Assembly: GCF_006740685.1 (NCBI RefSeq)
Contig: NZ_CP035425.1
Coordinates: 1,093,687 to 1,157,686, forward strand
DNA length: 64,000 nt
Direction: 5' to 3'
Source: Candidatus Nitrosopumilus sp. SW
Lineage (GTDB): Archaea > Thermoproteota > Nitrososphaeria > Nitrososphaerales > Nitrosopumilaceae
Position 1 is the first letter of the stretch. Each line of letters opens with the position of its first letter. A program made the translations under genes and the position numbers. Positions 15,982 to 35,174 of the stretch are shown in pieces. The notes below the pieces were generated by a model. The model saw only the letters and a list, made by a program, of their open reading frames with translations, was not told the DNA's origin and did not search any database.

Positions 15982-16230
15982 CTATTGAAGAATATCCTTT
16001 TCATAAAATTCTGCAATACTGTCCTTGACTATAATTTTTGAATTTTTTTTAAACTCAAATGATTCAGAAAAATTTGCCTTAATTATATTCAAATCAACTG
16101 ATGCGCCATCTTCAAGTGCAACATAATTGCGTGGTATAGAATTATCTGCTCTTTTCCACTTTCCATGTAACTTGCAAACATCAAAGAGTTTATGCAGTTT
16201 AGAATTGTCATGAATTTGATTATTTATCAT
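15982..16230 (-). CDS. Small hypothetical protein
   Basis: 82 residues, soluble, with a short pattern CKLHGKWKRADNSIPRNYVALEDG and a beta-rich C-terminus (KIIVKDSIAEFYEKDIL). It stops 3 bp before the MscS-like gene, so the pair is probably one transcript. No family recognised. Confidence 0.5.
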   Translation of the reverse strand: MINNQIHDNSKLHKLFDVCKLHGKWKRADNSIPRNYVALEDGASVDLNIIKANFSESFEFKKNSKIIVKDSIAEFYEKDILQ

Positions 16231-16425
16231 TATGTAAACTCCTTTTCAATTCTTTTATGGATATGTTTGAAAATTTATGTGAGTATCTATCTATAATTTT
16301 TTTAACTACCAGTCCTTTCATGTTGGCAAAATGTTATCACACCACATGTTATAAAACCATCGATTAAAACTTGTGTAAATTATTAATGCAATAATTTTTA
16401 AATGAATTATGTAAGACTGATTATA

Positions 16426-16486
16426 CGATTTTGGTGTAGAGAGTGATGATATTACCTACGACACACACACTCTTTACATCAAATCG
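16426..16486. ncRNA. Candidate structured small RNA: long hairpin
   Basis: Bases 16426-16445 pair with 16468-16486: 19 base pairs with one bulged T and two G:U pairs, leaving a 22-base loop (16446-16467). A TTTTTAAAT stretch about 25-30 bp upstream of the + strand stem could be its TATA box. It lies in the otherwise gene-free 16231-16634 region before TFB. Such a long stem with compensating wobble pairs is unusual in AT-rich DNA. Strand undecided; the + strand is favoured by the TATA-like box. Confidence 0.45.
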
Positions 16487-16542
16487 AGTTTGTTTAAAAA
16501 ATACAATGATTGTTGCATGAATGCAAGATTAAACGTAAAATT

Positions 16543-16589
16543 TTTTCAGCTCATCAATTGATTTTCAGCTCATCAATTGATTTTCAGCT
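16543..16589. repeat. 19-bp tandem repeat upstream of TFB
   Basis: A 19-bp unit (TTTTCAGCTCATCAATTGA) occurs at 16543-16561 and 16562-16580 and again in part at 16581-16589. It ends about 16 bp before the TATA-like box at 16605 and may bind a regulator. Confidence 0.6.
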
Positions 16590-16604
16590 AGTGATTTTAT
16601 GAAT

Positions 16605-16614
16605 AATTATATGA
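16605..16614 (+). promoter_or_regulatory. TATA box of the TFB gene
   Basis: AATTATATGA centred about 26 bp before ATG 16635. It decides that start, because the earlier in-frame ATG at 16599 lies upstream of the box. Confidence 0.5.
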
Positions 16615-16634
16615 TAACATTCAAAATTATCTAT

Positions 16635-17564
16635 ATGAATCAGATGTTAGAATATTGTTTTGAAAATAAACACACATCACCCATAACTGATGTTGTTACA
16701 GGCGAAATTTGTTGTAGTGATTGCGGTGCAGTGATTATAGAAAAAACAATTGATCGTTCAAATGGTTTGATGACTCCTACCAAGGAAGATTATATGAACA
16801 AAACACAAAACGGCCCTCCAACAAAAATATCAACTTCAAATATGTCTCAATCAACAACGATCTCAAGAAAAAATCATGATTCTACGGGAAATAGGCTACA
16901 TAATGACACTAGGAGACATTTTTCAAGATTAAGAATATGGGATTCACGCAGCAAAATTGACAGAAATGAAAGGAATCTTGTAAAGGCATTCACAATTTTA
17001 GATGCATATGCTAGTCAGCTGGGTATTCCAGAAAATGCAAAAGAACATGCTGCATATATCTATAGAAAGGCAGTAGAAAATAACCTCATTATGGGAAGTT
17101 CGATTCCCTCAATGGTGGCAGGATCTGTTTATGTTGCCTGCAAGCAGCTTGGAATTCCAAGAAGTGCAGATGATACGACCAGAATTTGTAATATCAGTAA
17201 AAGAAAATTATCAAAAGCGTATAAACGTCTTGTAAAAAACCTAGAACTAAAAATTGATCCTTCAGAAACAGACTACATATCACAAGTTGCAAATTCATTA
17301 TCAGTTAGTGAAAAAACAAAAAGACTTGCAATCAAAATAATTGATGATGTCAAAAAGGAAAAAGTTCATGTGGGAAAGAAACCGCTTGGAATTACTGCAG
17401 CCGCAGTATATCTTTCTGCAATTAATTATAGTGAACATGTATCAATGGCAAAAATTTCAAAGGTGACCAATATCAGTACAGTAACAATTAGAAAAATTAC
17501 TAAACTGATAAAGCCGTTTGCTGCAAAATATATTGAGAGCATAGATGTAGGGGTGATGAAATAA
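16635..17564 (+). CDS. tfb: Transcription initiation factor B (TFB)
   Basis: About 309 residues from ATG 16635. Recruits RNA polymerase to TBP-bound promoters. N-terminal zinc ribbon: Cys8, His13, Cys27 and Cys30 (CCSDCGAVI after VTGEI); the first knuckle is C-x4-H rather than the usual C-x2-C. A linker with RIWDSRSKIDRNERN leads into two cyclin folds (NLVKAFTILDAYASQLGIP, AGSVYVACKQLGIPRSADD, and the second repeat with AAAVYLSAINYSEHVSMAKIS). Thaumarchaea often have several TFBs, so this is probably one of a family. A short coiled-coil gene follows after 4 bp. Confidence 0.93.
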   Translation: MNQMLEYCFENKHTSPITDVVTGEICCSDCGAVIIEKTIDRSNGLMTPTKEDYMNKTQNGPPTKISTSNMSQSTTISRKNHDSTGNRLHNDTRRHFSRLRIWDSRSKIDRNERNLVKAFTILDAYASQLGIPENAKEHAAYIYRKAVENNLIMGSSIPSMVAGSVYVACKQLGIPRSADDTTRICNISKRKLSKAYKRLVKNLELKIDPSETDYISQVANSLSVSEKTKRLAIKIIDDVKKEKVHVGKKPLGITAAAVYLSAINYSEHVSMAKISKVTNISTVTIRKITKLIKPFAAKYIESIDVGVMK

Positions 17565-17568
17565 ACAC

Positions 17569-17760
17569 ATGTCACAAAAACAAAGCGAATTAACAAAAAT
17601 AAAGGAGTATGAAATCTTGCAAGATGAATACAAACATCTGCTTTTAGAATATGAAAACATTAAAGCAGACAATCCTCACAGCCAACAACTAAAAAACAAA
17701 ATCAAAGAATTAATTCAGAAACAAAAAGAGATTCAAAAAACACTGTTAGAATTAAAATAG
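17569..17760 (+). CDS. Small coiled-coil protein
   Basis: 63 residues, almost all Lys, Glu, Leu and Ile, a single amphipathic helix (EYEILQDEYKHLLLEYENIK). Starts 4 bp after the TFB stop, so likely co-transcribed. Function unknown. Confidence 0.55.
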   Translation: MSQKQSELTKIKEYEILQDEYKHLLLEYENIKADNPHSQQLKNKIKELIQKQKEIQKTLLELK

Positions 17761-28135: not shown

Positions 28136-28190
28136 TCTCGAGTGCTAGATGAAAATTATGTTAAATACCACTTGTTTTTATGAAATTTAG

Positions 28191-28250
28191 GTAGCAGTCT
28201 GACCAATGTAAACCTCCTGCAAGATTTTTACTTGGTTGGACTCTGCCTAC
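28191..28250. other. Intergenic imperfect hairpin, possible RNA element
   Basis: Bases 28191-28206 and 28232-28250 form about 16 pairs (GTAG/CTAC, CAG/CTG, then TCTGACCAA with TTGGTTGGA including two G:U) with small bulges, and an inner GTAAA/TTTAC pair lies below the loop. It starts 5 bp after the stop of the AIPR gene (minus strand), so could be its 3' end structure, or a small RNA on either strand. Confidence 0.4.
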
Positions 28251-34772: not shown

Positions 34773-35174
34773 GTGGATAGAATAAAGCGCCTTTCATACG
34801 AAGTCTTAGATACTCACAAGTCTAAATTCGGTGAAGATTTTGCTGATAACAAAAAAGCTCTAGATCAAGTTTCAATCGTCCGCTCAAAGGGACTAAAAAA
34901 CGAAGTCGCAGGTTACATTACAAAATTTATCAAAAAAGAGATTAGAGAACAAAAAGCAAAAGAGGCACAAATTGCATCTTCTAAGGCCCAAGAACAAGAA
35001 GTTCAAATGGAACCTGAACCAGTAGAGGCAACTGAAACCGCAGAAGCACCTGCTGCAGAGGAAACTGAAAATACCGAAGCTCCAGCAGTTGAAGCAACTG
35101 AAACAACAGAAGCACCTGCTGCTGAAACAACAGAAGCACCTGCTGCTGAAACTACAGAAGAAAAATCTGAATAA
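34773..35174 (+). CDS. rps17e: 30S ribosomal protein eS17 with long acidic tail
   Basis: 133 residues, GTG start. The first about 70 residues are eS17: IKRLSYEVLDTHKSKFGEDFADNKKALDQV and NEVAGYITKFIKKEI. The C-terminal about 60 residues are low-complexity and acidic (ETAEAPAAEETENTEAP and repeats of TTEAPAAE). Archaeal eS17 is normally 60-70 residues, so the tail is unusual. A similar acidic arm is on uS11 at 23016. Confidence 0.92.
   Translation: MDRIKRLSYEVLDTHKSKFGEDFADNKKALDQVSIVRSKGLKNEVAGYITKFIKKEIREQKAKEAQIASSKAQEQEVQMEPEPVEATETAEAPAAEETENTEAPAVEATETTEAPAAETTEAPAAETTEEKSE

Follow-up and report, generated by a model that had tools for sequence, protein, structure and literature searches.

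A hairpin with its own predicted promoter as a candidate small RNA gene in Nitrosopumilus-like archaea

The hairpin at positions 16426-16486 (+ strand) of the window, by which we mean the whole 64-kb stretch of DNA analysed, probably forms the body of a non-coding RNA gene that is small, single-copy and transcribed on its own, and that occurs in a few species of the Nitrosopumilus-like genus. From sequence comparison we put the probability of this reading at roughly 55%, and the best reading of its distribution is that the gene would be young and lineage-restricted. The fixed neighbour of the hairpin is a divergent methyltransferase-like gene, not the TFB paralogue that follows it in the window, and an easy misreading is thereby corrected, as proximity to TFB is no evidence for TFB control. 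Small RNAs of ammonia-oxidising archaea, which matter for the nitrogen cycle, seem almost undescribed in the PMC literature searched, and the coordinates in the window, together with a probably cultured relative, allow a direct transcript test of the hairpin.

The hairpin, its predicted promoter box and its 3′ tail

The features of the locus, with identities to a close relative (G063), are as follows:

16220-16321, − strand: N-terminal stub (33 aa) of the methyltransferase-like gene, its start resembling P0002 and homologues
16322-16369, − strand: leftward promoter of the methyltransferase-like gene or stub; 43/48 identical in G063
16380-16402, + strand: predicted rightward promoter box TTATTAATGCAATAATTTTTAAA, with the TATA-type core at 16395-16402; 23/23 identical in G063
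16426-16486, + strand: hairpin, taken as the body of a candidate small RNA; fold z −5.75; covariance-model homologues in G063, G066 and G013
16487-16505, + strand: 3′ tail with short T tracts, candidate weak terminator; 15/19 identical in G063
16543-16589, + strand: TTTTCAGCTCATCAATTGA in 2.5 copies, direct repeats of 19 bp located before the TATA-like box of TFB
16635-17564, + strand: TFB paralogue, 309 aa; Pfam TFIIB, 102.1 bits

The stem comprises 19 pairs with one bulge (T16430), its arms (16426-16445 and 16468-16486) enclosing a 22-nt loop (16446-16467) within which the minimum-energy fold places two extra pairs, while two pairs of the stem are G:U (16434:16479 and 16439:16474). RNA folding yields −21.8 kcal/mol on the + strand (z: −5.2; equalled by 0/200 shuffles) and −17.4 kcal/mol on the − strand (z: −3.4), and a rerun with 500 shuffles gives z-scores of −5.75 (0/500) and −3.35 (2/500), respectively. 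The structure described in the first-pass annotation is therefore real and far more stable than shuffles, and its gene-free surroundings are likewise borne out, with no ORF of at least 60 aa between 16322 and 16634. Scanning the whole window in segments of 61 nt places the hairpin just ninth among clusters ordered by stability, those above it lying mostly within ORFs and one non-coding cluster being a tRNA. Such stability is not rare across 64 kb and proves little alone, so that the case rests on conservation. Two non-ORF 61-nt stretches out-fold the hairpin, at 28189-28249 (+ strand; −27.3 kcal/mol) and 35073-35133 (− strand; −26.1 kcal/mol), and neither has an Rfam match.

The TATA-like box reported upstream of the hairpin is present, TTTTTAAA occupying 16395-16402, 24 nt before the hairpin. 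By itself this motif, of which the + strand of the window has 13 copies, is weak evidence. The archaeal TATA-to-start distance places the predicted transcription start at about 16425-16428, the foot of the hairpin. Among six aligned genomes, the box reads TTTTTAAA in four and TTATAAA in two, at a matching distance from the hairpin. Hairpin and predicted promoter thus appear to be kept together, by which the unit would count as an independent small RNA gene.

The 3′ tail is possibly a weak terminator, a role suggested by its short T tracts; its TTTRAAAAATA block is common to four genomes, and no strong T-run terminator is present after the hairpin. That the hairpin itself terminates a very short rightward transcript might be read from the short T tracts found 3′ of the stem in the aligned genomes, but no gene lies between box and hairpin, and in the window genome (G000) each tract after the stem consists of three T. 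Termination in archaea relies mainly on runs of at least five T, with no hairpin needed, and we regard this explanation as highly improbable.

Conservation among relatives

The hairpin persists in the close relative G063, at about C1 1228983-1229042 on the + strand, with changes that preserve pairing, and the 23-nt TATA-type box there is identical. Identity between the two genomes is complete over the box (23/23) and amounts to 14/20 in the 5′ arm, 16/22 in the loop, 16/19 in the 3′ arm and 15/19 in the tail, while merely 10/35 positions are identical in the 35 nt past the tail. Sixteen of the 19 pairs are kept, and four varied pairs still pair, one of them via a double change. A covariance model built from the window and G063 hairpins (R1) and run over 95 genus genomes retrieved G066 (38.5 bits; E: 1.9e-4) and G013 (36.6 bits; E: 7e-4), where the elements lie directly after a TTTTTAAA box, at the syntenic place, adjoining the divergent methyltransferase-like gene. 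A second model built from four sequences (R2) found four genomes (G000, G063, G066 and G013; 81-105 bits) among 250 family genomes, the next-best match (30 bits) proving on inspection of its sequence to be a different locus. The identical four genomes were returned from 400 order genomes (E up to 0.01), with the restriction that searches spanning more than 40 genomes used stricter filters, under which weak members can be lost. Weak model matches in other genera, such as L170, represent a different locus and were rejected.

In two further genomes, G085 and G069, the divergent gene is again accompanied by a related-looking stem-loop in the corresponding position. It is preceded by a TTATAAAC...TTTGTAAGAG promoter and has a GCTCT(T/C)TG 3′ arm in common, while the loop differs. 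Neither R1 nor R2 recovered these two genomes, and their homology therefore relies on position and partial sequence.

No other copy of the hairpin occurs in its own genome, where only the hairpin itself is matched at E up to 0.01 and the remaining listed matches span 15-18 nt (E: 0.27 or more). A repetitive mobile element of the MITE type was rejected on account of this single copy. The DNA-similarity matches inspected elsewhere were short, restricted to one arm or flank, in several cases evidently coding, and without box or hairpin; the exception is a weak G066 match (L126), which is a true homologue. A pattern scan of genome contigs returned eight bacterial records, which were taken as chance, and that of viral sequences 38 stretches.

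The covariance check proposed in the first-pass annotation gives a mixed answer: pairing-preserving and double changes do exist in the alignments, but the whole-structure counts are not clearly above within-column shuffles. With two sequences 92.1% of the cells are paired and the covariation score is reached by 279/500 shuffles. The corresponding values are 86.5%, with three double-change pairs, and 44/500 for four sequences, in an alignment fitted to the structure, and 69.4% and 203-364/500 by measure (covariation score: 203) for six. Slid structures pair less (30-57% with two sequences, 36-53% with four and 35-53% with six), and RNAalifold on the six sequences retains an 8-pair core in which two pairs show double change. 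A chance or neutral remnant, that is an AT-rich spacer with a good fold in two close species and subject to drift in the others, would agree with this statistically weak covariation, with the ninth rank in raw stability and with the lack of the hairpin in most genomes that have the divergent gene. It does not readily account for a box and stem kept in G063 against the poorly conserved 35 nt adjacent to them, nor for model matches at the syntenic place in two further genomes, and we consider it unlikely.

The z-score is lower on the + strand, which reads away from the divergent gene, than on the − strand in all six genomes (+/−; G000: −5.75/−3.35; G063: −4.99/−3.09; G066: −1.58/−0.13; G013: −1.52/−0.63; G085: −0.99/+1.49; G069: −2.42/−0.64), although the folds of G066, G013 and G085 are not strongly better than shuffles and the raw energy in G013 is slightly more stable on the − strand. 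The hairpin boundaries in G066, G013, G085 and G069 were picked after folding, which flatters their z-scores, and as the species are moreover related, the strand bias is support, not proof. The earlier argument from wobble pairs to RNA is weak alone, and the strand comparison over relatives is a better one, if modest. Were the hairpin instead a DNA-level inverted repeat, serving as a regulator site between divergent promoters and without any function as RNA, its position adjoining two such promoters would be expected, as would the ability of both strands to form the stem, seen in G000 and G063. An operator would, however, be poorly served by half-sites 22 bp apart and by G:T juxtapositions, the rightward box is followed by the hairpin and not covered by it, and the + strand is favoured by z-score in 6/6 genomes. 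We hold such a site to be improbable.

Neighbouring genes

In G066 and G013 the gene beside the hairpin is intact and encodes a protein of 287 aa with a methyltransferase-like motif, recognised by eye, for which no Pfam, NCBIfam or PDB match was found. Just its first codons remain in the window and in G063, where the promoter has been retained. This leftward promoter was seen upstream of most of the P0002 homologues read; upstream regions were read for 35/41 methyltransferase-like matches, and 17, G000 and G063 included, were aligned. The hairpin element is present at only the few loci described above among the 35 read. A second, partial methyltransferase-like copy with a box occurs elsewhere in the window genome (L165; G000:C1:1376000-1379000), beside a hairpin (z: −2.85) unrelated in sequence to that at 16426-16486. 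In G063 (L113, left part), the stub is followed by the same-strand start of another TFB paralogue, and the hairpin there lies between two TFB genes.

The TFB paralogue starts 148 nt downstream of the hairpin on the same strand, with similar spacing in G063 and no strong terminator between them, an arrangement in which the hairpin could serve as a 5′ leader of TFB, an attenuator or stability element reached by read-through from the TTTTTAAA promoter. Four genomes (G066, G013, G085 and G069) have, however, the hairpin but not this TFB, and three (G064, G067 and G095) have this TFB but not the hairpin, so that the conserved linkage by which a cis-regulatory leader would be recognised is dissociated both ways. 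Orthologues of this TFB (65-81% identity) are present in 4/94 other genus genomes; as a route to relatives of the hairpin they yielded just G063, the other three being without it. Furthermore, TFB carries its own TATA-like box (TTATAT; 16607-16612), the position of which suggests that the predicted TFB mRNA is leaderless, as well as conserved repeats. The pattern [AC]AGCT-N14-[AC]AGCT is found at −69/−70 in 5/5 TFB orthologues and in 0/30 other TFB upstream regions (30 other loci were scanned, after two further ones had been left out because of their length; some of the loci fetched were unlisted). The TTTTCAGCTCATCAATTGA repeats are likely a regulator site of TFB outside the hairpin unit, and with a promoter region and conserved repeats of its own, control of TFB is better sought there. 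Between the loop and the start of TFB no complementarity is evident (−3.8 kcal/mol, which places TFB 63rd among the 65 gene starts compared). We judge the leader explanation to be slightly less probable still than the inverted repeat or the remnant, and the role in TFB regulation suggested in the first-pass annotation is not upheld, given the linkage broken in both directions, the lack of loop pairing and the TATA box and repeats of TFB itself.

The downstream context in other genomes favours a stand-alone RNA, as the nearest features downstream of the hairpin in G013 are a tRNA-Met call and an opposite-strand ORF, and no convincing co-directional gene follows it within the G069 locus. A short coiled-coil-like protein (weak HALZ match) is encoded after TFB at 17569-17760, and a similar ORF is located downstream of the hairpin in G066, which is without this TFB. 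N. maritimus has eight TFBs according to PMC12448741, a paper backed by transcriptomes.

Proposed action and comparison with known RNAs

The conserved order of box, spacer and hairpin and the + strand bias of the six genomes agree with the initial proposal of a small structured RNA that has its own promoter; what has fallen away is the role in TFB control attached to it. RNA polymerase would start some 24 nt downstream of the TTTTTAAA box, so that the RNA would begin at the stem foot, fold into a stem-loop whose exposed loop, approximately AUUACCUACGACA, is conserved in part, and terminate in the short T tracts that directly follow the stem. It would most likely act in trans, through loop pairing with an mRNA or through protein binding. 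The RNA gene may have arisen beside the divergent methyltransferase-like gene and survived the decay of that gene in the window and G063, its nearness to TFB in these two genomes being the product only of local rearrangement. A more tentative extension, which we consider rather doubtful, is that of a newborn lineage-specific sRNA gene, its partner gene dead in two species, with RNA and promoter under selection and the loop AUUACCUACGACA serving a regulon as a seed for pairing in trans or as a protein-binding site.

Antisense sites for the loop are not enriched over a backwards control in four genomes, those in G000 numbering 22 vs 61 for the backwards control pattern. In loop duplexes with the 65 gene starts of the window, the best partner was ORF 18514 (−17.1), which was rejected as a target since nothing equivalent is seen in the homologues from G066, G013 and G063. 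At gathering scores, Rfam (release 15) identifies two tRNAs only in the window and nothing over the hairpin, and up to E 5 there is no match over the hairpin, four weak matches sitting at 16505-16644. Searches of the PMC literature, a scope outside which subscription papers and preprints lie, returned no description of the candidate RNA and no described small RNA for ammonia-oxidising archaea.

Tan1 of marine Euryarchaeota is, as the hairpin would be, a marine archaeal non-coding RNA, and differs in lineage, in its size of 229 nt, in its complex fold and in being seen as an abundant transcript (PMC5069720); no thaumarchaeal non-coding RNA is reported in the excerpted text of that paper. The box C-like GUGAUGA at 16443-16449 of the hairpin recalls archaeal C/D box guide RNAs. 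Unlike in these, the stretch is not kept in G063 and lies within a long stem and loop, and up to where the stem ends there is no CUGA box D; inspection thus showed no conserved C and D boxes, and a C/D box guide RNA was rejected.

Intergenic sRNAs are known as a class from the transcriptomes of other archaea. That class rests on transcriptomes, whereas the hairpin unit described here is known from its sequence and is without a family name. Like the members of the class, it is short and intergenic, has a predicted TATA-type promoter of its own, would form a stable stem-loop with an exposed loop and is of narrow taxonomic range.
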